Shown here piece by piece: positions 17,927 to 62,976 of a stretch of 64,000 nt of DNA. Below the pieces are notes generated by a model. It was not told where the DNA came from. It saw nothing but the letters and a program-made list of their open reading frames with translations, and ran no database searches. This DNA comes from Fereydounia khargensis (taxonomy: Eukaryota > Basidiomycota > Ustilaginomycetes > Urocystidales > Fereydouniaceae): positions 490,266 through 554,265 of the forward strand of contig JAOCZO010000003.1 of the NCBI GenBank assembly GCA_026413255.1, written 5' to 3'. Each line of letters opens with the position of its first letter. Positions within the stretch are counted from its first letter, which is position 1. Position numbers and translations under genes: made by a program.

Positions 17927-19690
17927 ATGACGCCTCCCCCCTTCAAAGCACGACGCATCAACAATGGCTGGACGGGCATTGACATTGGCCTGTCGGGCAA
18001 CTGGCTCTTGGCCGTCATCACAGCCTGCTGTGCTTCAGGCTTCCTTTTGGTCGGCTACGACAATGGAGTGATGGGTGGCCTAGTGGGTACTCCAGAGTTC
18101 TCAGAGTCGTTCAATGACCCAGACGCAGCCACGATTGGCAACATTGTCAGTCTCTACGAAATTGGCTGCTTTTTTGGTGCCCTCTCGACCTTTGTTATTG
18201 GTGACTTCTTTGGCCGTCGCGGCACCATCCAGCTCGGGTGCCTCTTCATGATTGCTGGTGCCATCATCCAGGCGGCAAGCAACTCGGTCGGTGTCATGAT
18301 TCTTGGCCGCATTGTCTCGGGTCTTGGGATGGGTGCTATCAACAGCACCGTCCCTGTCCTCCAGGCTGAAACTAGTCCTGCTATCTCCCGTGGTCAGCTA
18401 GTTGCTCTTGACCTGACAGGTAAGTAGGCCGTGCCCTTTCCATTCACTTCCCCCTGGCCAGGGTATGTCCAATACCCACGTCTGGGACCATTCACATCGC
18501 TCCCTAGAAATAAAAATATCAACTGGTTCCCAAGCTTACCTTCTCTTATCCTCTTCTCACTGAACCTTTGGCGATTGACAATTTCAGTGTTGAACTTCGG
18601 CATCGCAATCTCCTACTGGGTCGACTATGCCATGAACTACGGCGGTGTTACCGGCTCCAAGTCGTGGCGCATCCCCATTGCACTCCAGTGCGTTTTCATC
18701 GCCGGCCTATTTGTAACCGCTGCCATTATCCCAGACACGCCACGATGGCTCGCAGCGCGTGGACGAGATGCCGAGGCAGTTGCGGTGCTCGAGCGCCTAC
18801 AGAAGCGATCCAGCGAGTCTGCCGAAATCCAGGAGGCGTTTGGCTCCATTCAGCAGGCAATCGAGCACGAGCGAGCGACAGCAAAGAGCTGGAGCTCTCT
18901 TCTCTTCTCGCGCCACGACGACCAGATCCGATCCCGTCGCAGGCTTCTATTGGCATGCTTTATCCAGTTCGCCCAGCAGGCGGGTGGCATCAATGCGCTA
19001 ATCTATTATAGCGCAACACTTTTCACCAAGTCGGTTGGACTGGAGGAGAAGCCTGCTGCCCTTCTCAGTGGTTTCCTCAACATGACCCTTATTGTCGGTT
19101 CCGTCATTTCCATCTTCCTTGTTGACCGCGTCGGCAGGAAGTTGCTGCTGCTTCCCTGTATCGCTGGTATGTCGCTCGTCATGGCCTTCCAGAGCTGGTT
19201 CATCTACGAGGTTCAGCAGCCCAACTCGAACGGAGCGTACGGTCGCGCTGCTACCGCCATGCTGTTCCTCTTTGAGCTCTTCTTCTCGGTCGGTTTTCAG
19301 GCTACGGTCTGGCTCATTCCGTCCGAGGTGCTCCCTCTCACCATCCGAACGAAGGGCTCTGCACTGTCAACTGGTAGCAACTGGATCATGAATTTTGCCG
19401 TGGTCAAGTTCACGCCCTCGGCCATTGAGAACATCAAGTGGCGCACGTACATCATCTTTGCCGTGCTCAACGCCGCCTGGCTGCCTATCATTGCCATCTT
19501 CCTCCCCGAGACCAAGGGCAAGAGCCTAGAGGAGATTGACGAGCTCTTTGCCAAGGACGGCTGGCACCTCGATGCTGGACATGCTGTCATGCCGGCGACC
19601 TCTTCTAGCACCGGATACGAGAATGACCTCGAGGCAAAGTCGGATGGCATGGTGCTTGACACTTCGTCTGCCAAAGCAGGATCGCTTTGA
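17927..19690 (+). CDS. MFS sugar transporter (sugar porter family)
   Basis: Two exons, 17927-18419 and 18588-19690, join in frame to 531 residues. Twelve membrane spans are expected and visible as hydrophobic blocks. Sugar-porter signatures are present: GYDNGVMGGL in span 1, GDFFGRRGTI after span 2, ILGRIVSGLGMGAI in span 4, PDTPRWLAARGR ending the first half, FAQQAGGINALIYYS in span 7 and LPETKGKSLEEID after span 12. These place it with fungal hexose/polyol proton symporters; the substrate cannot be assigned. It lies divergent to the SMP-30-like lactonase. The start is the first ATG of the ORF and leaves a short cytosolic tail (MTPPPFKARRINNGW), as in relatives. Confidence 0.92.
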
Positions 19691-21041: not shown

Positions 21042-22866
21042 ATGGCTGGAAACGGTGGCCGCTTCTATCCCTTGGGGAGTAACCATGCTCCTTCGTCCAA
21101 CGAGTCGAGCCAGCTCTCCTCCGCCTCCGACACTTACGCACAGGCATCCTCCTTTTCCAACCAGCAAAAGTATCTCCTCGAGGATCCCAACTCTCTCGCA
21201 GAGGAAGATGACTACCTCCACGACAGCAAGGATGACAAGATGCCCTCGACCGGTTCCAGTTTCTTCAACACTCGAGGTGTGCTCAATATCCTCACTCTCG
21301 CCCTTATCGCCATGGCACTCCTCATGCTCTTCCTAGGGTACCCCGTCATCATCGAGATTCGTCGCCGTCTCAGTGACTATGAGCTTGGTGTCAGCTCGGG
21401 CACGCGCATGACCAATATTGCTCAGCGAGGCTTGATTGATCCCGACACTCCCAAGACCGCCATGAGTCGTACCAGTGACGAGGACGGATCCAAATGGCAC
21501 CTGGTCTTTAGCGACGAGTTCAACACTGAAGGTCGTACTTTCTTCCCTGGTGACGATCCCTACTGGGAGGCCGTAGACATCTGGTACTGGGGAACGGGTG
21601 ACTACGAGTGGTACACTCCTGAGGCAGTCAACACAACGGACGGCGCGCTGACTATCACCATCGAGGCAGTCGAGACCAACAACAAGAACTTCCGTTCCGG
21701 CATGGTCCAGTCATGGAACAAGGTCTGCTTCCAAGGCGCCTACTACGAGTTTTCTGCCATCCTTCCCGGCTCTCGCTCTGCGCCTGGTTTCTGGCCCGGT
21801 CTCTGGACACAGGGAAACCTCGGTCGTCCCGGTTACGGTGCTACCAACGAAGGTCTCTGGCCCTACAGCTACAACGAGTGTGACACTGGCATCCTGCCCA
21901 ACCAGACCTATCTTGACAAGTCCGGACCCGAAAAGGCTCTCGACGCTCACGGTCTCTTCTCACAACAATCCAACTACGAGCTCTCCTGGCTGCCGGGAAT
22001 GCGATTCCCCTCCTGCACCTGCTCTGGCGAAGAACACCCGGGTCCTAGCAACAACGTTGGCCGATCCGCTCCTGAGCTCGATATTCTCGAGGCCAAGATT
22101 GACGGCAACCACGGCCAGACTTCCCAATCGCTCCAAATGGCTCCCTTCGACATTGACTACTACTACGGCAACGGCACTGGTCAAGTCAAGATCTATGATG
22201 ATCTTACCGAGCTCAACGACTACAAGGGTGGCTCCATCCAGGAAGCCATTTCTGCCCTCAGCCAGGTTCCTGACGACTCATACGAACTCAGTCCGCAGCC
22301 GAGGTACACCACCTTTGGTGTCGAGTACGAACCGGACTGGGAAGGAGATGGAAAGGACGCCTACGTCACTTGGTACATGGACGGAAAGCCTACATGGACC
22401 CTGTATGGCGCGGCTATTGGACCGGTGCCAGATCTTGATATTGGCCAGCGTCTCGTTCCTCGTGAACCCATGGTAAGCACCTGCCTTCCTACTCCTCAAG
22501 GTAGTAATATTTTTACTGACCCGATCCTCTTGCAGGCCATGGTCATGAACTTGGCCATCTCTCAGAGCTTCCAGGTCCCTCAATGGGACCTTCTCGAGTT
22601 CCCAGCCCAGTTCAAGATCGACTATGTTCGCGTCTACCAGAAAGATGATCGACCCGACCGAGTCAGCTGCGACCCATCAGACTACCCCACCTACAACTAC
22701 ATTGAAAAGTACGTTCCGCCTTTGCTGCTTCCTCGCCATTTGCAGTCGTTCCTAACGCTTTCTCATCTATTCCTGTTTCAACAGCAACAAGGACATTTAC
22801 TTCAATGCAAACAAGACCGAGTTCCCCAAGAGCAAGATCCCTAAGAACCGCCTTACCGGCTGTTAA
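21042..22866 (+). CDS. beta-glucan synthesis-associated protein KRE6/SKN1, paralogue 1
   Basis: KRE6/SKN1 proteins are type II membrane proteins of the secretory pathway with a GH16-like lumenal domain, needed for beta-1,6-glucan of the cell wall. Exons 21042-22472, 22536-22708 and 22785-22866 join to 561 residues. A Ser/Gln-rich cytosolic tail (1-78) is followed by a membrane anchor at about 81-103 (ILTLALIAMALLMLFLGYP), then the catalytic domain. The GH16 acid motif is E345-L-D347-I-L-E350. Also seen: [20 protein letters not shown], the CTCSGEEHPGP loop and WYMDGKPTW. The tail ends KIPKNRLTGC, shared by three of the four paralogues. It is closest to paralogue 4, including intron positions after REPM and after YIE. 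First and only plus-strand member of the cluster. Confidence 0.93.
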
Positions 22867-23008
22867 AGCATTCAATCCACTCTACAGTATCTCATGTGTA
22901 ATTATCTCTCCTCTCAGGCATTTTTGATTTGAACCTTCCATCGTTATTGTCCTCGTGCACCTGCACTGCGTCATTGCATTGTCTATTGAAAGGAACGGAG
23001 AAAATCGT

Positions 23009-25541
23009 CTATGCGGGAGGGTTGGGACCGGGTTCGACGGATGCTGGGTTGGTGCATCCGTCTGGGTACAGCCGGTTGCGGGGCCAGGGCTCGCCGTATC
23101 CCTGTTTGTATATCCATGAAATCCGCTTGTCAGCACGCTTTCTCGGAAAGGACATCGATGATTGGGGGCTCGGAAACTTACACCAGTATCTCTTGTTCCG
23201 CCCCAAGTCGTGAGGTTGGGGTTGCTGTGGGTAGCGACAGCGACGGTGTGTTTTTCAGTAACAGGCTTTCTCCACAGATGGGTTCCGGCAATTGCTGCTT
23301 ACTTGTATGCCTCGGCGTGTCGCTCAATGTAAGCGGCAGTGGGGAAGTTGTCCGGATCACATCCACTGTTTTTGTCGAATCAGCAATCAATATCGTCGAT
23401 GACTCTGGGGCGTGGGACACTTACATGTTTTCTTTGCCCTCAGGCTGGTAGACACGGATATAATCGACCGACATTTTGCCCGGCCATTCCAGATTGTCAA
23501 ATTCGACAGTTCCAAAGCCAGATGAGATGGCCAGGTTCATGATCAGATACTAATCAAACACGCATCCCTCATTAGTCTTTTCATATCTTCGGGTTGAAAG
23601 TGGGAGAGAATGACACGTACCATTGGCTCTTCGGGAACGGGGCGCCTAGCGATTCCAACGCGTGGGTCAGCGGCTAGCGCGCCGGATCGCAGCGTCCATG
23701 ACTTTTCGCCATCGTTGATCCAGGTAATGTACCCGTCTGGCCCAGCTTCGTACTCGAATCCATCTGATTGAACGCCGATTTGGTCAGATCGCGAGAGGCA
23801 GACAGCTCGATGATATCGGGTGGCATGGAGACTTACAAACGGCAAACTCGCCACCAGAGTACTGATACGCACGCTGATTGGTATCTGCGACGCCACTAGC
23901 TGATTGCTGCAAGACATTGCCTTGGTATCTGCCCTCCACTCGTCAGCCCCAATCCCTCATCTGACAAGCGTGATATAGTGCACTTACTCGTTCAACTTTG
24001 CCGAATCCTGGAAAAACTCGTACTCGTTCCCGGTCGTGTTGATGAGATGGTAACCGGAGTTGGCCGGCATCCACTGACCAGACTGAGATACGCCGCCCTT
24101 ACCGCCAGAGACTTGGGCTTCGAAGACGTCGATTTCTGGCGCAGATCGACCGACAAAATTACCGTTATCGTCCTTGGGGCCCGGGTGATCTTCACCTGGG
24201 CACGTGCATGCGGAAAGGCGCTGGCCTGGTTGCCAACTGATGCTTGTCGTGTCGTATTTGTTGTTGTACTAGAGCGCTATCGGTCAGCGCAAGTTTTCAG
24301 AGGTGGAACAGATAAGGGATAGTGTACGTACGACAGTGTCACCAGTAGTCAAAGCGTCATCGGGACCCAAGCCATCTGGGGTAGTTTGGTTGCGCAGGGT
24401 CCCGACATCACATGCGCTGTAGGCATATGGCCACGTGCCTTGTGTAGTTGCGCCGTAATTGGCTCGTCCTAGATTTCCCATTGTCCACTATTCCAAGGGA
24501 AAAACATGAGTAAACGTTAGGAAACTAGGGCGTGGAAGGGGTTAAGAGTGGGACTCACAATAGCTGGCCACCATCCTGACACTGAACTGCTACCAGGTAG
24601 CTGCACACGAGTCTCGACGTAGCCGCCTGTGAAGCAGAACTGATTCCATGTTGTGATTTGGCCACTTCGGAAACTGGAGTACCACCTCGGCGTGAGTTGA
24701 AAAGCGCTTGCCTGCGAAAAGAAATCATATGGTTGCCAAACTCACTTGAGGTTGTTAGTGGGGATCTGGTCGGCAGTAATGACGAGCGATCCGTCCTCAG
24801 TAGTCACAGCTGACGGGTGGTAGTATTCCTTTTGATAGAGGGCAATGTGTCAGCCTAGGCATCAATGGTTAACCGTGGGGAATGATGAACCCACATAATC
24901 TGCTGTAGCCCAAGGCCAAAGCTCGACAGCAGTCCAGAAGGGATCATCGCCGGGCCAGAACGATCGTCCAGGCTTATTAAACTCGTCACTGAATACGAGG
25001 TTCATTTTGGTGTTTCCGTCGATGCTCATCTTGCTCCTGAGTTCGTCGGGGGTATCTGGGTCGATAAGATCGAAACGGACATCGCCCACAGGAGCAGCGG
25101 GGATCTGACCTGTGCCGTTGGTGCCTCCTACGTTGTATCCTCCCTTGGTACTGCTGTGCGCTAGTCGGGCGAACTCAATGACGGGATAGCCTAGGAAGAG
25201 CATCACGATTCCACCGAATATGAGGAAGACGGTAAGCATATTGAGAATGCCCTTGGAATCGAGTCGACTTCCATTTCTGTCGCCACCACGAGGAGAAGTG
25301 AGGTGAGTGTGTGATAAAAAGGAGGAGAGAGAGAGTGTGTGTGTGGAAGATCGTACCTGGAATCCCTTTCAATATCATGCAACTCGTCATCTTCGATGTA
25401 AAGATCTGTGTATGGAAGAGGGTAGCCGTGTCCTGACCCAGAGGCGGATCCTTTTTCGCTGAGAAATGGGGTCGATACGTGGTACGTTGATGATGACCCA
25501 CTGCCACTCGTGGTGCCGCTAGTGGGATATTTTTCACTCAT
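23009..25541 (-). CDS. beta-glucan synthesis-associated protein KRE6/SKN1, paralogue 2 (12 exons)
   Basis: Twelve exons on the minus strand: 25357-25541, 24895-25276, 24746-24828, 24559-24673, 24332-24487, 23988-24268, 23837-23928, 23621-23763, 23425-23549, 23303-23365, 23182-23224 and 23009-23101. They join without a frame break to 586 residues. Cytosolic tail, membrane anchor near the start of exon 2 ([19 protein letters not shown]), then the GH16-like domain with E352-I-D354-V-F-E357. Conserved marks [20 protein letters not shown] and [11 protein letters not shown] are present. The C-terminus differs from its siblings: it ends in a Pro/Asn-rich stretch ([16 protein letters not shown]) instead of a final N-x-L/F-x-G-C. 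It is the most diverged and by far the most intron-rich copy. Intron 1 carries a GA/GT repeat at 25326-25346. Confidence 0.88.
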
Positions 25542-26325
25542 AGTGTCGTGTTGGGATGTCAGGGAGCCATATGGGGGCCCGGTGGCTTACTCACCCTCGA
25601 TGCTGTATATATTCAGTCAAGAGATTCCCGGCCTAACCTCACTAGTCGGGGGTTCTGCCTCTGTGGGGCAAGGCAGGGATTAGGCACATGTCCATTCATG
25701 GGGACTTTGGCACGAGGGCGAGACAGCGACAAGTGACGGTGATAGTGACAGGGGTGTACTGTATGCAACCCATCAGACACTGGTGATGCACTGGGCCAGG
25801 CTGCTGTATGTTGCAGTTGTCAACAAACCGTCTCATCGGTTGCACGAACTTGGACCGCTCGTCAAGACAGAAAAGGGCCCAACTGCGCAGCATACAGGGA
25901 GGAAGATGGTGTACTCGACCAAAAAAAGTAACATCTGCCCGCCCTCCCGCACCGCATCGCCGCTGTGTCAAGTTGAGCCGGCGGCGGAGTCTGTGTATGC
26001 GTGGGCGCGGTGTGCATGCGTCCAGTGACATGACGCTGTGAGATTGGGTCATTGATTTAGGGCGAAACCTCGCTTGTTTGGCTCTCCAACTCTGTTGCAT
26101 CAGATGCCGGTGTCTTTTTTTTCCCCTTTTGTGTTCACTCTCGCGTGTATCTGACACACACTCACAGCGACCCTGTACCGTACGATCCATCATGTGCAGC
26201 AGGATGATTATCCCAAGTTTGGATTCAATCCTGTCCGATTCGTCTGTTCTGGTGTGGTACATTACAAACAGTATACGCAGTACTTTATCAAAGAAGGGAG
26301 AATAAAATCGTCCGAGGATGCATCT
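25542..26325. other. intergenic region between KRE6-like paralogues 2 and 3
   Basis: 784 bases holding the promoter of paralogue 2 and the 3' UTR of paralogue 3. A TATATA sequence near 25606-25611 lies about 65 bases upstream of the paralogue 2 start on the minus strand. One TACTGTA heptamer is at 25757. No gene seen. Confidence 0.4.
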
Positions 26326-28092
26326 CTAGCAGCCAGTGAGTTTGTTCTTGGGCCAGGCGTACTTTTCCTGGGGGAAGATGGTGTAGTTTGGGTTGGTGTA
26401 GATGTCCAGATGGTCCTCGATGTACTTGGAGGTTGGGTGGTCCGGTGGGTCGCACGAGAGACGGTCATCTTGACCATCTGGTTGGTACACGCGCACGTAG
26501 TCAACCGACATGAAGGCGGGGAATGTGATTCCGCCCGATCCAAAGTTGACTCGCTGGAAGCCGTCCGACACGGCCAGGTTCATAATGATTGCCATGGGCT
26601 CAGTCGGTACGATACGCTGGCCGATGTCCATATCTGGGCGCGCGGGGAAGGCAGTCGGGTTGACTTGCCACACAGCCTTGCCGTCTAGGTACCACACCAC
26701 CTTACCGTTGCCGTTATAGTCAAAGTCGGGCCAGAACTCGACTCCGTACCGAATAAACTCGCCGTCCGTCGCTGCGAATCCGGAATCGGGCACTTGGGAG
26801 AGACCGGATACCGCCTCTTGCAATTGACCACCAGTGTACGTGTTGAATGTGGTCTGATCACCAAACAGTTGTGCATCTGTGGGTGTCGCGTTGCCCCAGG
26901 CGTACGAGTCGTCAAAGGGCGCAATCTGGAGCGACATGGATGCAAACGAGTGGTCACCCTGCACTTGAACCTCAAAAATGTCGAGCTCGGGAGCGGATCG
27001 ACCCACGTTCACGTTGGGACCTGGGTGGTCTTCGCCTGGACATGTGCACGCTGGAAGACGCATTCCTGGGAGGTAGGAGAGCTCGCCATTGTAAGCATAC
27101 TGAGCCGTAGACTGGGTCGCTCCTTCCGGGCCAGTGCCATTGATGAACGTCTGGTTTGGCAAGATGCCCGTGTCACAGCTCTGGTAGGTGTAGGGCCACA
27201 TTCCTTGAGTGGACCCTTGGTAGCCAGGTCGACCGAGGTTGCCCATGAGCCATACCGCAGGCCAGTAACCCGAGGTGCTAGGTCCACCAGGGAGCCTTAC
27301 GGAAAACTCAATGTAGCCGCCCTGGAAGCAAAACTTGTTCCACGACTGGAGCATGCCAGACTGAAAGTTTTTGTTGTGCGTTTCGGTTTCGGTGAGTGCA
27401 ATCTGGAGAGCGCCTCCAGTGGTGTTGATGGCCTCGGGCGAGTACCACTCAAAGTCACCTGTTCCCGAGTACCAGAGGTCGACTGCCTCCCAGAAGGGAT
27501 CGTCGCCTGGCCAGAAGGTCCTTCCCTCCTCTTCAAACTCGTCGGAAAAGACGAGATGGAAGGACTTGCCGTCGTGAGATGTCCAGGTGGTTGCATCTTC
27601 TGGTGTATCCGAGTCGATGAGGTTGGAAATGTCCAGTGCTGGTACCTGGCCAGATCCGTTGGTGCCGCCGAGGTTAAAGCCGCCCTTGGTACTGTGGTCA
27701 TAGACCTTGAGTACCTTGACCAGGATTGGGTATCCGAGGAAAAGCATGAGAAGGCCGAGAGCGATGAGGGTGAGGGTGATAATGTTGAGCAGTCCACGGA
27801 CGGAGAGCGAGTGGGATGACTTGTCCCAGTCGCGACTCATGTCGTGGAGGTAGTCATCATCCTCGGCGTCGTTAGGGAGGAACGACTTGCGCTCGCCTTG
27901 ACGCTGGGCTAGTGGAGAGGTGGCGCTGGGCCTGTTTGCTGACGAATATGCTGTTGCCGTTGCCGCTGCTCCTGCTGCTCCAGGTGCAAGGGGGCGAAAG
28001 ATGGCCTCATGGCTGCTGCTACCACTGCCGCCGCCACTGCCGCTGGAATGGCTGTTGTACGAAGCCTGGCCGCCAGATTCGAGCCGACTCAT
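26326..28092 (-). CDS. beta-glucan synthesis-associated protein KRE6/SKN1, paralogue 3 (intronless)
   Basis: Single exon, 588 residues from the ATG at 28092 (MSRLESGGQASYN); the frame is open upstream but has no earlier ATG near the coding part. A Gly/Ser/Ala-rich cytosolic tail is followed by a membrane anchor (IITLTLIALGLLMLFLGYP) and the GH16-like lumenal domain. Catalytic motif E369-L-D371-I-F-E374. Also [31 protein letters not shown] and WYLDGKAVW. It ends WPKNKLTGC. The lack of any intron, beside siblings with 3, 5 and 12 exons, suggests intron loss or an mRNA-derived copy. Several N-x-S/T sequons in the lumenal part fit a glycosylated secretory protein. Confidence 0.93.
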   Translation of the reverse strand: MSRLESGGQASYNSHSSGSGGGSGSSSHEAIFRPLAPGAAGAAATATAYSSANRPSATSPLAQRQGERKSFLPNDAEDDDYLHDMSRDWDKSSHSLSVRGLLNIITLTLIALGLLMLFLGYPILVKVLKVYDHSTKGGFNLGGTNGSGQVPALDISNLIDSDTPEDATTWTSHDGKSFHLVFSDEFEEEGRTFWPGDDPFWEAVDLWYSGTGDFEWYSPEAINTTGGALQIALTETETHNKNFQSGMLQSWNKFCFQGGYIEFSVRLPGGPSTSGYWPAVWLMGNLGRPGYQGSTQGMWPYTYQSCDTGILPNQTFINGTGPEGATQSTAQYAYNGELSYLPGMRLPACTCPGEDHPGPNVNVGRSAPELDIFEVQVQGDHSFASMSLQIAPFDDSYAWGNATPTDAQLFGDQTTFNTYTGGQLQEAVSGLSQVPDSGFAATDGEFIRYGVEFWPDFDYNGNGKVVWYLDGKAVWQVNPTAFPARPDMDIGQRIVPTEPMAIIMNLAVSDGFQRVNFGSGGITFPAFMSVDYVRVYQPDGQDDRLSCDPPDHPTSKYIEDHLDIYTNPNYTIFPQEKYAWPKNKLTGC

Positions 28093-28845
28093 GGTCGTGT
28101 ATGTATGGTTTGGAGGAAGGTGGAGGAAGAAGGGGAGAGACGGACGGACGGAAGAGAAGACGAAAAGGAAGAGATGGATTCCGGACAAGCAACAACAAGA
28201 AGGCAGATGGTGCCCGACCGCCCCCTATACTGATATTGATCCATCACATCCTTTACGGCTCAGCTCTGCACATGGAAAGCCTCATGCTCACTCTCGACAC
28301 GGCACTCTGTGCCGGCATGACATGACGTGAGCCGCATTGCGCGCGAGTGTGTGTTTTGTGTGCGGTCAGTCGCTCGAGTCCCATGTGGGGGCCCATTTTG
28401 GCAGTCTGCCAGAGTGCGCACTGCCGTCGGTTCGAAAGCGCGCGCGCGCGTGTGTGTGTGTGTGGGTGCGCCTGCGTTGACTGCGCTTCCGCCGGCGGGT
28501 CAGCCGCAGTGCCAGTGTCTGTGTGAATCGGCCAGAGCTGCATCGGCGGCACCCTGCATAGCTTGGCTCGTTCGTTTCATTTTCCACACCCCTAACCCTG
28601 GCCGCGGTCTGAGACTGGGACTGGGCTGTGCGCCTGCCCCCTGGGCCTCCGTGAACGGCGTGCCGGCCGGCCAAGTGGCAGCGCAGACAAACCTTTGACA
28701 TGCCTTCCACGCATCTCCGAGGTCTCCTCTCGCTCACAGATCGACCGAGATGAATACTGTATTCAATAAATAGTCCATGGAGTTCGGGTCATAGCAAGAT
28801 GTGTCAGATATGTATATACAAGTGCAGTCATGGAATCGTGGCCTA
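28093..28845. other. intergenic region between KRE6-like paralogues 3 and 4
   Basis: 753 bases with the promoter of paralogue 3 and the 3' UTR of paralogue 4. It holds an alternating CG/TG repeat (28439-28464, listed separately) and a TACTGTA heptamer at 28755. No gene seen. Confidence 0.4.
28439..28464. repeat. alternating (CG)n(TG)n dinucleotide repeat
   Basis: A CG run continues directly into a TG run, a purine-pyrimidine alternation of about 26 bases of the kind that can adopt Z-DNA. It lies upstream of paralogue 3. Confidence 0.85.
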
Positions 28846-30891
28846 TCAGCATCCCTGCAGTCGGTTCTTGGGGATCCTGCTCTTGGGGAACTCGGTGAGG
28901 TTGCGGTTGTAGTACATCTCCTTGTTCCTGTTGCACCAAAACCACCATCATCCTTGTCAGTCCATCTGTCACATCAACAAGACGCTTCCTCTTGCCCAAC
29001 TCACCTCTCGATATAGTCAAATGTCGGATAGTCCGAGGGGTCGCAGCTCACTCGGTCAGGTCGACCATCTCGCTGGTACACTCGCACATAGTCAATCTTG
29101 AACTGTGCTGGGAATCGCAACAGCGACCAATCCGGCATCTGGAAACTTTCCGAAATGGCCAAGTTCATGATCACAAACTGTCACAAAAAGAGAACGGGTG
29201 TCAGTCAGTAAAGTTAATCCCAGGCAACATCGCCACATCTCGTGCTACTGCCATCACTCACCATAGGCTCTCGCGGGATCAGCCTGCGTCCCATGTCGAG
29301 CTCGGGAACAGGTCCAATCGAGGCCGAGTAGAGTGTCCACGTTCGTTGCCCGTTAATGTACCAAGTCGCATAGGCGCCCTCGCCATCGCCGTTCCAGTCA
29401 GGCTCATACTCGACACCAAACGTCGTGTACTGGTTACCAGGGTACAGCTCATACGCATTGTCCGGCACCTGACTCAGCGCCGAGATGGCCTCCTGGATTG
29501 CACCGCCCTTGTAGTCATTCAGCTCGGTCGTAGCGTCCCAGATGGCCACCTCGCCTGTGCCATTGCCATAGTAGTAGTCAATGTCGAACGGTGCCATCTG
29601 CAGCGACTGCGAAGTCTGACCGTGGCCAGTGCGCGCATCCACCTTGGCTTCCAGGATATCCAACTCGGGAGCCGAGCGTCCCACATTGTTGTTCGGACCA
29701 GGGTGGTCCTCTCCAGGGCAAGTGCACGCCGGGAAACGCATACCAGGCAGCCACGAGAGCTCATTGTTGTATCCGGCCGAGAAGAGGCCGTTGGCGTTGA
29801 GCGCAGCCGGAGGGCCGGTGCCATTGACGTATGTCTGGTTGGGAAGCATTCCCGTATCGCACTCGTTGTAACTGTAAGGCCACATGCCCTCGTTGGTTGC
29901 ACCATAGCCAGGTCGTCCCAAGTTGCCCTGAGTCCAGAGACCAGGCCAGAAACCAGGAGCAAGGTTCGAGCCCGGGAGAATGGCGGAAAACTCGTAGTAG
30001 GCGCCCTGGAAGCAGAGTTTGTTCCACGACTGAACCATGCCAGAACGGAAGTTCTTGTTGTTGGTCTCGACCTCTTCGATGGTAATGGTGAGTGCACCGT
30101 CAGTCGTGTTGACGGCCTCTGTTGCATGGAAACCACGTGCGCGCGCGGGTGTCAGTGTCAGTGTCAGGTCCCGCTGCTATTGCTGCTGCAAGATGTGTTG
30201 AGATGCATGTCGACTCACCAGGCGTGTACCATTCCAGATCACCAGTACCCCAGTACCAAAGGTCAACGGCCTCCCAGTACGGGTCGTCACCGGGCCAAAA
30301 GGTCCTGCCTTCCTGCTCAAATTCATCGCTGAAAACTAGATGCCACGAGGAGCCGTCCTCAGCGCTAACACGGGACATGGCTGCGCTAGGCGTGTCTGGG
30401 TCAATAAGGCCTCGCTGGCTGATAGATGTAAGCCTCTCTGCCGAGCTGATGCCCATCTCGTATGGGCTGAGCCTCCTGCGGATCTCGACGAGGATCGGGT
30501 AGCCGAGGAAGAGCATGAGCAGACCAAGGGCGATAAGGGTGAGGGTAAGAATATTCAGGACACCACGAGAGTTGAAGCAGCTTGAAGAGCGCTTGCCACG
30601 GAACTTGGTGCCTGTCACATCGTGCTGCGTCGTAGAATGTCATACCACAATTGTTAGAACAAAGGCCAGAGAGCGGGCGGAATGGCTCAAAGTAGAACTG
30701 CTTACGAGATAGTCGTCCTCTTCTTCATCATGAGTCCAGTTCCTGGCTTGTTGCTGCGAGCGATTGCCGCCAGAGTAGGCGGACGAGACACCGGCATAAT
30801 TCTCGGCACTCGAGTGCTGGCTCGACTCTTGTGAGGAAGTAGGCTGCTTGTTAGGGAGGGCGGTAAAGTCGCCCTTCCTTGCTGGTGGCAT
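28846..30891 (-). CDS. beta-glucan synthesis-associated protein KRE6/SKN1, paralogue 4
   Basis: Minus-strand exons 30706-30891, 30219-30624, 29262-30118, 29005-29177 and 28846-28927 join in frame to 567 residues. A hydrophilic cytosolic tail (MPPARKGDFTALPNKQ...) with an acidic EEEDDYL patch is followed by a membrane anchor (ILTLTLIALGLLMLFLGYP) and the GH16-like domain with E349-L-D351-I-L-E354. Shared marks: [40 protein letters not shown]. It ends RIPKNRLQGC. Sequence and the last two intron positions make it the sister of paralogue 1, although they sit at opposite ends of the cluster and on opposite strands. The start is the first ATG of exon 1. Confidence 0.92.
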
Positions 30892-32173
30892 GTTGGGCTG
30901 TGCTTTCGGGTTTGAGATGGTGGTAGAATACAGAACCGACACGAGACGATGAAGGTTAAGATGTTAAAGAATGTCAGAGTTAGACAGAGAGAAGGAGAGG
31001 GTGAGGAATCATTGCCATCAACAGTGTCGAGAGGGGGCGGCGACGCCAGTCAGCCTGGATAGCCAAAAAGGCTTGGCACGCGGATCAGTCCGCTAGGCTG
31101 CTGGACCATACTGGCTGGCAGCGGTGGCATGATTGTGTGCGTTCGAGGTCAGCTCAGCAGCGGGGCTGGGCAAAGGCAAAGCGCAAAACTGTAGAATTGC
31201 TTGGCGCGCGGGGGAAGGGGAAAGCAGGTATCAGACAAGTCGGCACAGACGCCACGCTACGCAGGGAAAGAGGAAGACAGGAAGTAGGGAGGTGGGGTGC
31301 ATAGCCAGAGCTAGCCATGTGCGAATAGAACAGGGCTCAGGGGTGGCCATAGAAAGCGACACGTTCTATACAGCCTCCCTTCCGCATCGCCTTTATGTAA
31401 TGCGCCAAGAGCTGTGTGTTAGTGAGTGTGAGAGCCTGCTAGCCAGCGACAGGTTACGGGCTACCGTGGTTTGAGGAGAGGCAAAGGCACTTGGCCACTC
31501 TCACCGCCCGTTCTCTGCGGTGCTGCTTCTCGCATGCCAAGACGCGACTGGGACTAGTGCATTGTAATTCAATAGGCTTCGGCTGTGTTGTGAGTGCATT
31601 ACAAGCTGGCTAGTGTTGAATTACTGCACTGACTTACCGAGGGAGATGCGGTTCGGCCTCACACCGATCCGCCCTTGCCTGCGACCTCGACCGTGACCGC
31701 GACCGCGACCGACCCGCCCGCCGTATGCATTCACGCCCGGCGATAATAATGACAACGCACTATTTTGAGGTGACTGAAATCAAAATCGAATCTGAACTAC
31801 AACACGCCCTCGCCGACGTTGATCGCCCCTCCTTGCCCCCCTCTCTGCTCAAGCGCGTTCGTTTCGCTCGTTTGCTGGAAAAGGACGAAAAAGGCCCCTC
31901 CCTATGGAGGATCGTCTCTGCCAAGCTTTTAAACAATCAACTCAGCCCAGTCAGCCCTCGCGCCAGCACACAGAGGCAGAGAGACAGAGAGTCACCGACC
32001 GAAAATCCAAACCACCAACTGCACTCCATTCTCGCAGTCCTTTGCTCGTCGTCGTCACATATCACACTCACTCTACAGTGGCCTTCACCACTCGCATCGC
32101 AAAACATCACATCACCTCATCTCCCAACAGACCCATCCACACTCCCTCTCACCGAGTTGGTCTGCCGCCCATC
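30892..32173. promoter_or_regulatory. divergent intergenic region, KRE6-like paralogue 4 / ROT1
   Basis: 1282 bases between divergent start codons of two genes of the same pathway, so both promoters lie here. An imperfect inverted repeat sits at 31556-31630 and a GACCGC-rich stretch near 31682-31712. A long open frame from 31725 overlaps the ROT1 start out of frame; I regard it as non-coding. Confidence 0.4.
31556..31630. repeat. imperfect inverted repeat
   Basis: Left arm 31556-31572 and right arm 31616-31630 pair as AGTGCA..TAATTCAA against TTGAATTA..TGCACT, with a small bulge and a loop of about 43 bases. Confidence 0.55.
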
Positions 32174-33086
32174 ATGTTCCGCCAACTCGCATTCTTCACC
32201 ATCATCTGCGCATCCCTCTCCCTTGTCTGGGCCAGGATCGAGGACTACCGTGTAGTCAACGCCAACTCGGTGCAGCTCCTGACTGGCACCTGGTCCAGCG
32301 GCATGGGTAGGGTCGTCACTGGTCTCGTATGTATTCCTAATCTGCTTGGCTCCACAACTATTTCTTTTCCTCTGTACTCATCATCTCTCCTACCGTTTGT
32401 TGCCGCAGAACTTTTTCGACCCTAAAACTCGCACCTTCAAGGCTCCTGCTGCCACGGGAATGTCCTACAGTTTCTCAGACGATGGATACTGGGAGCAGGC
32501 TCTCTACCGCATCATTGACAACCGTGAGTATCCCGCTTCCATCTCTTTTAATTCTTTCTCTCGAAACTCATGTGCTGACCGTTTCAAACGCTTCCCTTTT
32601 CAGCCCGCAACCCCAAGTGCGTTCAGTCTCAGCTCGCATGGCAGCACGGACGATACTCCATGCTGGGCAACGGAACCCTCAAGCTCGAGCCTTTTGTCCA
32701 CGAGGGATGCCAACTGATCACGTCTAGCTGTTCTGGCGGTAACCGCACCGAAGAGGCATACGAAGTGTGAGTCTCTCTGCTCGCAACTGTCTTTTCTCTG
32801 CTCCTTCTGTAGCGGCTGACACTCACATTGTCTCGCTCTCACAGCACCGAGGTTTATGCCACTGTCGACACTTGGGTCACTGATCTCCACGGCCAGACCT
32901 GGCAGACGATGCGCTTCACCGACCCGTGGGGCAACCGCTCTCCTCCCCTCTACAAGCGCTACGACCCGCCCATGATGCTTCCCACTGAAAAGCTCTACGT
33001 TGAGGTATGTATCTATTCTATCCCTATGTTTTGCATGCGATGGTATAGCACAACTGACTCGTCATTCACAGGTCCTCGGTCTCTAA
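32174..33086 (+). CDS. ROT1: ROT1-type ER chaperone
   Basis: Rot1 is an essential ER protein of yeast with chaperone activity, required for normal beta-1,6-glucan and for stability of the Kre6 machinery. Exons 32174-32326, 32409-32523, 32604-32766, 32845-33004 and 33072-33086 join to 201 residues. A signal peptide (MFRQLAFFTIICASLSLVWA) is followed by LTGTWSSGMGRVVTG, FFDPKTRTFKAP, GMSYSFSDDGYWEQALY, LAWQHGRYSMLGNGTLKLEP and an RYDPP-MML-PTEKLYVEVLGL end, all in the family order. NGT and NRT sequons and paired cysteines fit an ER lumenal protein. Yeast Rot1 is longer and has a C-terminal membrane anchor; none is visible here. The last exon encodes only four residues. The gene lies next to the four KRE6-like genes. 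Confidence 0.87.
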
Positions 33087-33585: not shown

Positions 33586-34674
33586 ATGCAGCCCATCATC
33601 CTCTACGACGTCTATGTTGAGAGTGGAGTTCCACCGGCGCCCAACCCGTGGGTTGCTCGACTCTGTCTCAAGCATAAAGGCGTTCCATTTGTTGTCAAGA
33701 AGCTTACCTTCCAGGAGCTGCGCTCGCGGGCGCCTGGGTCGCTTTTCGACCGACTGAGTCCCATCCTGGGCCCGAACGACCGCCCGCTCATCCCCATGAT
33801 TGAGATCCCCTCCGATCAAGGCAGCGTCTTGTTGGGAGACAACATGGCGATCGCCGAGTACCTAGATGCGGCTTTTCAACCACCACAGTATCCCTCGCTT
33901 TTCTTTCCGGATGGTGCTGCAGAGGATATGGATCCCAACTCACCCGCGTTTCAAATGGCACACTCTACGGCCCGCATTCTCAAGGAAGGAATTGGCAACA
34001 GTGACAGCATGTGGTCTGGGTTCTTTGAACTGACTGTCGACAGCATGTCAGAGCTGTACGATGAGGCTAGTAAAGCGTTCCTCCGAAGCGACGAAAAGCT
34101 CGGTATGGGCACCAATAGCTATGACAAGTTCATGCGCATGAACAGAGCCGACTTGCTCGCTCAGACCCGTCGTTCGCTCCTTCCCTTTGAAGGCATCCTC
34201 ACCCCTCGCCCAAGTATCCGTGTGGTTGGCGGCAACGTCGACCTCCTTCGTCCGGACGATACTACCCAACCGGCCTTCCTCAGCGGGAGCAAAAGCCGCC
34301 CGGGCCTAGTGGACTTTATCCTTTTTGGCCGCTTCGCCATGGTTTACATCGCAGATCGGCAACTGAGCGAGGCCATCTTTGGAGAAAGCAGCGATGCAGC
34401 CAAAGCTTGGGTCAAGCGAGAAGAGGAACGTCGCCAAGCCGCTGGACTGGCCTGTGAGGATACCGGGACCTGGTTGGGCGATATCGCCCTGCCCGGCATT
34501 GCAGCCTGGGTCAAGCGAGTGAGTTCATTACACAGCACCCACCTTTGCCAATAGGTACTGTGCTTACGGGAAACATACCTGCCTCTGCACTTGCGCTTGA
34601 TACTGTAGATGCTCGCTCTGAACGATGGATACGCGCAAAAGGTACTTGATGGTAAGGGTGATCAAAGCATTTAG
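33586..34674 (+). CDS. glutathione S-transferase-like protein, etherase (LigE / GSTFuA) type
   Basis: Exons 33586-34518 and 34609-34674 join in frame to 332 residues. The N-terminus ILYDVYVESG..NPWVARLCLKHKGVPFVVKKLTFQE has the thioredoxin-fold layout of fungal etherase-like GSTs, including the P-N-P-W-V-A-R segment. A glutathione-binding LIPMIEI..VLLGDNMAIAEYLD block (cis-Pro, then Asp before the helix) follows. The C-terminal helical domain runs from about 125. The family joins glutathione to, or cleaves ethers in, aromatic and other xenobiotic compounds. The position at the start of the accessory arm suits a detoxification or aromatic-catabolism role. Some ring-pathway isomerases also use this fold; the sequence alone does not separate these. 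Confidence 0.8.
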
Positions 34675-59014: not shown

Positions 59015-61400
59015 TTGCTGCGAGTACCTGCTTGAGGCAAGGGTGTGAGCCAATGAGATGAGGGCTTGCTGATTCCCACGCTGTCTTCAAGGGCGATGAG
59101 TGGGGAAAATGCAGCAAGTTACAGTAGTTGGATGAAACGATTGACCGACCGGTCGATTGGAAGCCGGGCGTTGCGATACAGCGTGTTGCAGGCGGGGTCT
59201 TGGCACCGACGCGTCTTTTTTTGTTCTTTCTCGAGACTGGCTGCTTGCTGCTCCTGGTCTTTCCCTTCCCAAAAGGGGAATTTTGCGCATGAAGGAGCCT
59301 TCCAGCAGAGGTCGGGCGTCGGCGTCGGGGCTGGCTATTGATAGAATGCAGACCAGCCGTACTGACACTCGATTTGAGACTCAGCTGACAACATAGTCGG
59401 CCTGTTACAATAGCATGCCAAACGAGCATGAATTTGGAGCTCGGCTGGGAGAATACCTGATACAGCGGGTGCATCCCCACACAGCACGGATGTGGCTCGC
59501 TTGCAGGCAAGGCAAGATGGGGCTCAAATCCAGGCCATCTCGTTGGTCAGCAACGATAATGCCAAGAATCGAGCACATTGCAAGCATGGTGGTCTGCTGT
59601 GTGCGTGTGTCTCCTTCCATCGGATGCAAGACGGCTAGGAGCCCATCTACAGTATGGCCATCCGGTTCTCTCCGTGTGTGGCATTGAAGTTCTCTTCGAC
59701 GTGACAGCAGCTTAGTCAAGGCTAGCGCAACAAATGCCTTTGGGATCTCGGGCCACAATGCATCCGAAGTCAACCCGAATGCTGTAGGTATCCGATTCCG
59801 CTAATGCCACGCAGCAGCCGAGGTCCACATGCGCCCACACACCCTACAGCATCTTGTTTTCCCCTATCCCTTTCTGTCTTACACCCTAGTCCCAGCAGCC
59901 ATTCCTGCCGAGTCTGAAGGCGAGAGCGAGAGACGAGACGCTCGTTTCCCTTCCAGACTAGCAGAAGCAGGCGAGCCATGTGCAGCACTGTGGGGTAAAG
60001 CGCGTGACGACGCAATGACGTTGGACGTTTCTGTACTGTGGTCTCTCCATTACGATCTGTGATCACCATAGAGTTGTTCCATCCCCATTCGAGAGCAAGC
60101 TGTTTCAGGTCAGATATCGGATACGGATCTTTCCTCTTTTGATACAGACAGACGGACGGGCTCGGCCGGATTGTTCGGTGGAAAGCACGGCAAGGGCCTA
60201 ACCATCCCGACGGTGAGCGGCTTGGCTCCCGCTTTACTGCATGTTGTCCCATCTGTCAGTGTTGCTACGGCACAACATTGACACTCCGTCAGCAGGGTGG
60301 ATTTGCGGGCCAGAGGCTGAACAAGAGAAGAAAAAAGGGTTCGGAAGGCAAGGGAAGGGTCAGAGCACCAAACTCGGTCTGACCAGGCGAGTTGAGTAGT
60401 ACATAAATGGTTACAGTTGAGACTGCTGACTGGCCGACTGACTGGCTAGCCCCTCTGCGGCTCTGCGTGGTGCAGCTCTCGTCGGATGCAGGTACTTCGT
60501 CTGCAGTTGCAGGTGCAGGTGGAGTGTGGGGTAAGGCGCCTAACCGAGCAGGACAACCCTCGCGTGGAGCCCACGAGGCACACAACCAGAGGACACCCGC
60601 CTGCAAGTCGAAAATGCCAAGCAACGCAGCTCGAACAAAAAGTCTCCTACCCATCTCGCGCTATTGTGCTCTGCACTGCAACACAGCAGCTCTTTGCGAG
60701 CACTTGTTAGCTCAAAGTCACTGCTCGTGCCGCTCTAGCCAGCCCACTCCGACCATCGGTCCCCAATAGATGTCCAAGTCAATTGTCACACGGCGAGGTC
60801 CTCGGATGTTTCCTTCGACCGGTCTTTACTACCACGGGATACATTCTTTCCTTTCCTTTCCGTCCCGCACTCCGCCCCGCAATCGGGAAAGAAAATGTCC
60901 GTAATTGCAAGCCAGCCCGGCAAAAGCACCTTACATCTGCCAAGAACCGCTGTGGAGATTTGCGGTGTGATCACTGTCTCCCTTTCTGTCACCAACCGCA
61001 TTAACTGAGGGCAAGGGCAAAAAAATAGGCGTAGGTTCATGCGCAAGCTTCCCCACAGTGCCGTGGGGCACCGCACTCCGGCTTGTGTCTTTGTCGTCAA
61101 CTACAGTACAGTAGCGCATTTTCCTCACCGTGTTCCGTTCCTGCTTCATTTCGCCAGATGAGACAACGGGGTACATGGGCCACGAGACTGTTTGCGCTAG
61201 CGTGCTTGAGCTGCAGTATCTGGGGTAGACAATGCAGAAATTTGGCACAATCTCGGGTCATATCTATCAGGTCCAACCATACAGAACATTTAGCCAACCC
61301 ATCTCGAAAAAGCCATAAAAGGATGACTGAGTTCGCCAGAAAAAAATGATTCTATCCACCCCTCCCCCCGTACACTACTCTTCTCCTCCTCATCAGCATC
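59015..61400. other. gene-poor 2.4 kb region
   Basis: No supported gene. The longest ATG-started open frame (59770-60252, minus) has no recognisable domain. TACAGTA/TACTGTA heptamers occur near 59120, 59652 and, overlapping, 61104-61112. The right end is the promoter of the Dal5-like permease, with TATCTATC (two GATA sites) at 61261-61268 and a TATA-like ATAAAAGG at 61315. Confidence 0.45.
61315..61322 (+). promoter_or_regulatory. TATA-like box of the Dal5-like permease gene
   Basis: ATAAAAGG about 86 bases before the start codon at 61401. About 50 bases further upstream, TATCTATC carries two GATA sites, as bound by nitrogen-regulatory GATA factors in fungi; a role here is inference. Confidence 0.4.
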
Positions 61401-62976
61401 ATGTCCGCTCCTACAACCCAGCTACCTCAACTCGATAAGGACAAGAAGGAAGACCAGGTCCAAGTCACGGACATTGCCGATGTCGACCTTGAGTACAACG
61501 ATGACAAGTCCTCGGACCTCAAGCGGGAACAGCCCGAGGGCGAGCTCGACTACAGTGGTTTCGCCAAGAAGACCGACCCTGAAGAGATCCGTCTTGTTCG
61601 AAAGATGGACATGTACATCATGATCAGCCTGTGGAGTATGTACTGGCTGAATTATCTGGACAGAAACGCTATTGCGCTAGCAAAGCTTTCATCGCTGGAA
61701 GACGACCTCGGACTCAATGACACCCAGTACCAGACCGCCGTGTCAATCCTCTTTGTCGGCTATGTCATTTTCGGTGTCCCCTCCAACATGCTCATCACGC
61801 GAATCAAGCCAGCTCCCTTCCTCTGCGGTATCATGATGACCTGGGCGGTTATATCGGTCTGCACTGCCTTCGCAAAGAACTTTGCCGGCTTGGTCGCAAC
61901 AAGATTCTTCCTTGGCGTCGTCGAGGCTCCTTATTACCCAGGCGCTCTCTTCATTCTTTCCAACTTTTACACCAGGACTGAGATTGCCACTCGTATCGCC
62001 GTTCTCTACACTGGAAACATTCTCGCAACCGCCTTTGCTGGACTTATCGCTGCCGGTATCTTTGAGCTCGATGGAAGGCTCGGATACGCTGGATGGCAGT
62101 GGCTCTTCATCATCCAGGGGTCTGCTACCGGCCTGATCGCCATGTGTGCATACCCCTTCCTCCCCAACACCCCTTCGACTACCAGGTGGCTCACCCCGAG
62201 GGAGCGAGAACTCGCTGCATCCAGGCTTCTCCGTGACAAGGTCGACGAGGAAGACCAGGGCTCTCCCCTCCGCGGTCTCAAGCAGGCTGTTGCCGACCCG
62301 CGTGTCTGGCTCTTCTGCCTCATGCAGAACCTTCACCTGTCTGCCAATGGCTTTAAGAACTTTTTCCCTTCCGTCGTCAACACCCTTGGATTCAACAGGA
62401 CCATCACCCTCGTCCTTACCTGCCCTCCCTACCTCATCGCCGGTGTCTTTTCTATCCTTGTCTGTGAGTACTTTCCGGGCTTTTCTTTCCGGTTTTCCTT
62501 CTTTTTGACTGAACGTTCAACTTACCTGTAAAATCTTGTTCACAGCCCTCACATCTGGCAAGTACAACGAGCGTACTTGGCACATCACCGTCTGCAAGGC
62601 AATCGCCATCGTTGGTTTTGCCCTTGCCCCAGCTACGCTCAATGTTGCCACTCGCTACGTTGCCATGTGCATCTTTACGATTGGCACATACGGCGTCAAC
62701 TCCATCGTTCTAGGCTGGGCCGCCACGGTCTGCTCTCAGACAAAGGAGAAGAAGGCTGTTGTCATTGCCATGATGACGTCCCTCTCCAACGCCTCCTTTA
62801 TTTACACGCCATACCTCTTCCGCGACGCCGATCAACCTCGCTATACACTCGCGATGGTTGCCATGGCCGCTTTCTCGGCTGCTTGTGCCCTCTGTGCCTG
62901 GGCGATGAAGATCATTCTCATCAGGCAAAACAAGACCCTCCACCAAAAGGGCTCGCCAACCAAGTACCCCTACTAG
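61401..62976 (+). CDS. Dal5-like MFS anion:cation symporter (allantoate permease family)
   Basis: Exons 61401-62463 and 62546-62976 join in frame to 497 residues. A long acidic cytosolic N-terminus (1-65) is followed by VRKMDMYIMISLWSMYWLNYLDRNAIALAK, the typical start of the ACS family with the Y-L-D-R-x-N signature. Further marks: VGYVIFGVPSNMLITRIKP (span 2 and loop), TRFFLGVVEAPYYPGALFILSNFYTR (spans 4-5, E-A-P-Y-Y-P), LPNTPSTTRWLTPRERELA (central loop) and LGWAATVCSQTKEKKAVVIAM (span 10-11). The family takes up allantoate, ureidosuccinate, nicotinate, dipeptides and other organic anions. It is the last gene before the telomere. With xanthine dioxygenase nearby, uptake of a purine breakdown product is plausible but unproven. 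Confidence 0.9.

Follow-up and report, generated by a model that had tools for sequence, protein, structure and literature searches.

The locus analysed here in Fereydounia khargensis raises the question of why four KRE6/SKN1-type genes lie side by side next to ROT1 near a chromosome end: as a co-regulated module for beta-1,6-glucan synthesis, as the product of a recent local expansion, or as an old array that ROT1 adjoins by chance. In the window, i.e., the whole stretch of 64,000 nucleotides that was analysed, the block spans positions 21042–33086 and consists of four intact PF03935 genes (512–626 bits; Pfam cut-off 30 bits), termed A to D, and ROT1 (PF10681; 160.6 bits, cut-off 23.2 bits). 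The gene models were made by hand and with a spliced aligner from the genomic sequence alone, run from ATG to stop, and have only GT-AG introns. Together with the Pfam matches they agree with the initial annotation, which had described four complete, adjacent KRE6/SKN1-type genes followed by ROT1, with one gene of the four on the plus strand, three on the minus strand and ROT1 on the plus strand. Genes A and B are convergent, with a stop-to-stop gap of 142 bp, B, C and D are arranged head-to-tail with gaps of 784 and 753 bp, and D and ROT1 are divergent and 1,282 bp apart.

Each of the four genes encodes a protein of similar length that matches most of the 501 positions of the PF03935 profile. 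Gene A (plus strand; exons 21042–22472, 22536–22708 and 22785–22866) encodes 561 residues, with exon 1 alone scoring 512 bits over profile positions 8–415 and exon 2 matching positions 416–473. Gene C (28092–26326, minus strand) is a single exon of 588 codons (617.9 bits, positions 5–499), and gene D (minus strand; exons 30891–30706, 30624–30219, 30118–29262, 29177–29005 and 28927–28846) encodes 567 residues (626 bits, positions 5–498). The most divergent copy is gene B (25541–23009, minus strand), which has 12 exons and encodes 586 residues (583.1 bits, positions 10–498). Gene B also differs from its neighbours in its 11 short introns (59–80 bp each), and its GC3 is lower (0.571) and its C-terminal tail longer. 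In-frame stops found in gene B by a six-frame search, together with its less GC-rich third positions, would fit a pseudogene and hence an array with fewer working genes than it appears to have. This idea, for gene B or any other copy, is scarcely credible and was rejected, since the stops fall inside introns with GT-AG ends in a clean 12-exon model whose product matches nearly the full profile strongly and keeps the catalytic motif.

That motif, E-x-D-x-x-E, had been reported for all four copies and is indeed present in each, as well as in the other paralogues found in the genome (6/6 in total); its variants in the window are ELDILE (A and D), ELDIFE (C) and EIDVFE (B). The CTC[PS]GE[ED]HPGP loop was likewise recovered in 4/4 window copies (CTCSGEEHPGP in gene A), and the membrane-anchor segment, recognised by eye in the alignment, has LFLGYP at its end in each of the four. 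We infer a type II topology, in which a single membrane span would separate a cytosolic N-terminus from a lumenal GH16-type domain. A comparison of gene C with the sequences of the PDB gave 19 distinct GH16-type matches at E ≤ 0.01, named as glucanases, laminarinases, GH16 proteins, LamCAT, ULam111 or beta-glycosidase, and none of these 19 is a solved structure named Kre6. An AlphaFold2 model of gene C, made with two other alignment rows, had a mean pLDDT of 26.6 and was unusable for fold comparison.

The position near a telomere that had been proposed for the cluster was confirmed by 12.5 copies of the repeat TTAGGG at the contig end (63926–64000, plus strand). Contig C3, whose right-hand end forms the window, carries CCCTAA repeats at its opposite end and therefore looks like a whole chromosome of 554 kb within the 10.46 Mb (40 contigs) of genome sequence examined. 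The cluster ends ~31 kb from the telomere. A sugar transporter, seen as two open pieces within 17927–19690, lies upstream of gene A, and ROT1 is followed by a gene (33586–34554) with a weak, below-cut-off match to GST. The stretch between the cluster and the telomere (36351–63149) contains an FAA hydrolase, two fungal transcription-factor genes, DUF3500, FAD_binding_3, a TauD dioxygenase, a PF02458 transferase and three MFS transporter stretches, a content that looks catabolic or secondary-metabolic in character. The MFS gene near the telomere (61350–62528) reaches a high codon log-odds score, 77.1 for its 393 codons, when scored with a model trained on genes A, B, C and ROT1.

Two further PF03935 genes were found in the genome, both unlinked to the array. 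The first, K2, is a single exon of 622 codons at 297517–299385 of contig C2, and the second, K16, on contig C16, has five exons and 679 residues in a model whose N-terminus is uncertain. Among the seven ORFs flanking K2 and K16 within a few kb on each side, four match protein families, none of them wall-related (APC10, an SNF2/HIRAN helicase, a Zn-cluster gene and a TRAM-domain gene), and three have no family match. Kre9/KNH domain matches occur on contigs C13 and C2, the latter ~40 kb from K2. Six is a minimum number for the KRE6 genes of this genome, because the genome sequence looks incomplete and the loose first pass of the search may miss genes. Grouped matches to core families gave 11 proteasome genes, three MCM genes and two tubulins, where 14, six and three, respectively, are expected. 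A profile search of the whole genome sequence, with the same loose first pass, gave no match to the FKS1 families PF02364 and PF14288. Since the sequence looks incomplete we do not read this as absence, and incomplete sequence or a missed search is its most likely cause; if true, the lack of a beta-1,3-glucan synthase would be striking.

The six paralogues allow the age of the array to be judged. Genes A and D are 75.0% identical, whereas identity is 43.5–57.5% across the 14 further pairs among the six paralogues and 43.5–52.2% in the remaining pairs within the array. Gene B is about equally distant from the other five (43.5–45.1%), and the nearest relative of gene C by identity is the unlinked K2 (57.5%). 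Even A and D have an NG86 dS of about 2.9, with an identity of 0.454 at third positions, and synonymous sites are therefore saturated. The lowest NG86 dS was 1.2 (C and K2) and 6 of the 15 pairs were not computable, with values above ~1 being rough. In a blastn comparison of the A and D loci (E ≤ 1e-5), the alignment was confined to the genes. Two intron positions, with their phases, are common to A and D, and B has one of them, which suggests a common ancestor that already carried introns. K16 shares no intron position with the others. Introns are absent from two of the six paralogues (C and K2) and number 2 to 11 in each of the remaining four; the intronless state of C and K2 suggests old intron loss, perhaps via an RNA copy. 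An unrooted maximum-likelihood tree of the six paralogues of this one genome (525 gap-free columns) separated A and D from the other four with support of 99.9/100, and thus B and C do not group with A/D; the pairing of C with K2 was weak (31.4/59). The array would represent one local clade only if K2 and K16 had escaped from it, a point beyond the reach of an unrooted tree built from a single genome.

Four genes of the same family in a row point to duplication and not to chance, and the saturation between A and D, the 43.5–57.5% identity of the other pairs, the differing introns and the A/D split in the tree together indicate that the array is old. The initial annotation had raised the possibility that the copies expanded here. 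In the sense of a recent event this is not supported, as every pair is old by identity, dS and the six-paralogue tree. A recent, lineage-specific burst of subtelomeric KRE6 genes through unequal exchange near the telomere would fit the presence of four copies within 10 kb, about 33–43 kb from the chromosome end. However, it is very improbable given the divergence of even the closest pair, the lack of any match between the A and D loci beyond the genes and the separate placement of B and C, and we rejected it on the saturated dS and the divergent introns.

An old origin of the array leaves the presence of ROT1 to be explained. The ROT1 model (32174–33086, plus strand) has five exons and encodes 201 residues that match positions 1–157 of the 209-position PF10681 profile, with the last 52 positions unmatched, and it is the only ROT1 found in the genome sequence examined. 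Yeast Rot1 has a signal sequence and a C-terminal membrane segment. The N-terminus of the F. khargensis protein is hydrophobic by eye, and the C-terminus of the model, with VEVLGL as its last residues, has no membrane segment; this may reflect an error in the last exon or a real difference of the protein in this fungus. In yeast, Rot1 takes part in the folding of Kre6, and both Rot1 and Keg1 in its maturation (excerpt of PMC6222916), and the phenotype of a rot1 mutant is that of beta-1,6-glucan mutants (excerpt of PMC8754110). The roles of Kre6 and Rot1 are taken from such published yeast work. Selection may have kept four Kre6-type isozymes and their chaperone together as a co-regulated wall module, in which a bidirectional promoter between gene D and ROT1 would raise client and chaperone together.

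This explanation is possible but doubtful. In its favor are the yeast relationship and the divergent arrangement of D and ROT1 over the 1,282-bp intergenic region (30892–32173), as well as the age of the array, whose persistence in linkage through saturated divergence could mean that linkage was selected. In addition, four 9-mers representing two motifs were found in at least three of the four upstream regions, including that between D and ROT1, against 0.4 expected; each of the two shared words occurs in 3/4 regions, and the D–ROT1 region has ACAGAGGCA at 31970 and AGCCCAGTC at 31944. This count was reached by 1 of 200 shuffles and by 5 of 500 draws of other non-coding-like sequence from the window, statistics that give weak support. 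The result was also the best of four word settings; the other three gave 14/200 shuffles, 16/200 shuffles and, in the last case, no word common to the four regions. The shared words are, moreover, absent upstream of the unlinked K2 and K16, and CAGAGGCAG and AGCCCAGTC recur elsewhere in the window, at four and two places, respectively. The words are thus a weak hint of a possible regulatory signal. Eight known promoter motifs, including PRE (searched as exact matches), the UPR core and Rlm1, gave nothing striking in plain counts without a null. A further consideration against a dedicated partnership is that Rot1 has many clients.

Evidence from other species bears on this possibility in part. 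Kre6 and Rot1 are both listed among the genes affected in a Ustilago maydis ubc2 mutant of the MAPK pathway (review PMC7409079, in excerpt), a listing that fits co-regulation and says nothing on linkage. Linkage of KRE6 and ROT1 is not mentioned in the available portions of PMC6222916, PMC7409079, PMC8754110 and PMC10455828. Scans for similar loci returned one bacterial locus (Gillisia) and no fungal locus from a genome-contig collection, and none from viral contigs. The chance that some beta-1,6-glucan gene would flank the array is ~0.5% by a rough estimate that assumes about a dozen other named genes of the pathway, two flanking positions and 5,000 genes; this is small for a single locus, but not for a scan of many windows in which a coincidence is picked afterwards.

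We therefore favor, with a probability of roughly two in three, an old KRE6/SKN1 array that arose by ancient duplication and probably encodes beta-1,6-glucan isozymes, and beside which ROT1 lies by chance or neutrally and not as part of a selected, co-regulated module. Under this explanation, ancient duplication would have given rise to the four-gene array, whose members then diverged in introns and sequence. The products of A to D would be single-pass membrane proteins and, by homology, most likely isozymes in beta-1,6-glucan synthesis, and ROT1 would be an ER helper of the kind that in yeast aids Kre6 folding, with its place beside gene D probably a chance or neutral neighbor relation. The fuller form of the selected module is in our estimation unlikely; in it, four Kre6-type isozymes with distinct functions would have stayed linked ever since they arose by ancient duplication, and a bidirectional D–ROT1 promoter would couple them to their folding chaperone. 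Such a module would be, to our knowledge, without precedent as a gene cluster that combines the enzymes for a fungal wall polymer with a chaperone. Were the ROT1 link conserved, it would point to client–chaperone co-regulation in wall synthesis. How beta-1,6-glucan synthesis proceeds is still unsettled, and Kre6 homologs are strong candidates for the pathway enzyme (excerpt of PMC11620752). The F. khargensis genome, in which at least six such genes are old and diverged and four lie in linkage, offers natural variation for examining which sequence features determine chain length or branching.

Comparison with known systems places the array within a wider pattern. Kre6/Skn1 and Rot1 of Saccharomyces cerevisiae belong to the same Pfam families as the proteins described here, and that yeast has two KRE6/SKN1 paralogs as opposed to the at least six in F. 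khargensis; we know of no linkage between KRE6/SKN1 and ROT1 in it. The basidiomycete Cryptococcus neoformans has six homologs (KRE6, SKN1 and KRE61–KRE64), the same number as found here, and their linkage is not stated in the portion of the source available (PMC9949634). Its Kre63 and Kre64 are described as being without a membrane span (excerpt of PMC12892975), whereas all four window copies keep theirs. In another basidiomycete, Sparassis latifolia, eight PF03935 genes are listed, of which two have consecutive identifiers (008218/008219) and two have near ones (005254/005257), and these identifiers suggest adjacent copies (excerpt of PMC5845502). A direct precedent is found in the Candida clade, in which SKN1 and KRE6 (orf19.7362/orf19.7363 in C. 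albicans) are old duplicates that lie side by side in C. albicans (two strains), C. dubliniensis, C. tropicalis, C. parapsilosis, Lodderomyces elongisporus and Debaryomyces hansenii, the pair being split in Pichia stipitis (excerpt of PMC2880306). The Candida-clade arrangement has two genes versus four here, and a link to ROT1 is unmentioned in that excerpt. The view in the initial annotation that such clustering is unusual in fungi thus holds only in part, given the Candida-clade precedent and the Sparassis identifiers: relative to the known KRE6/SKN1 adjacency, ROT1 next to gene D is the new element, a testable coincidence and not yet a module.
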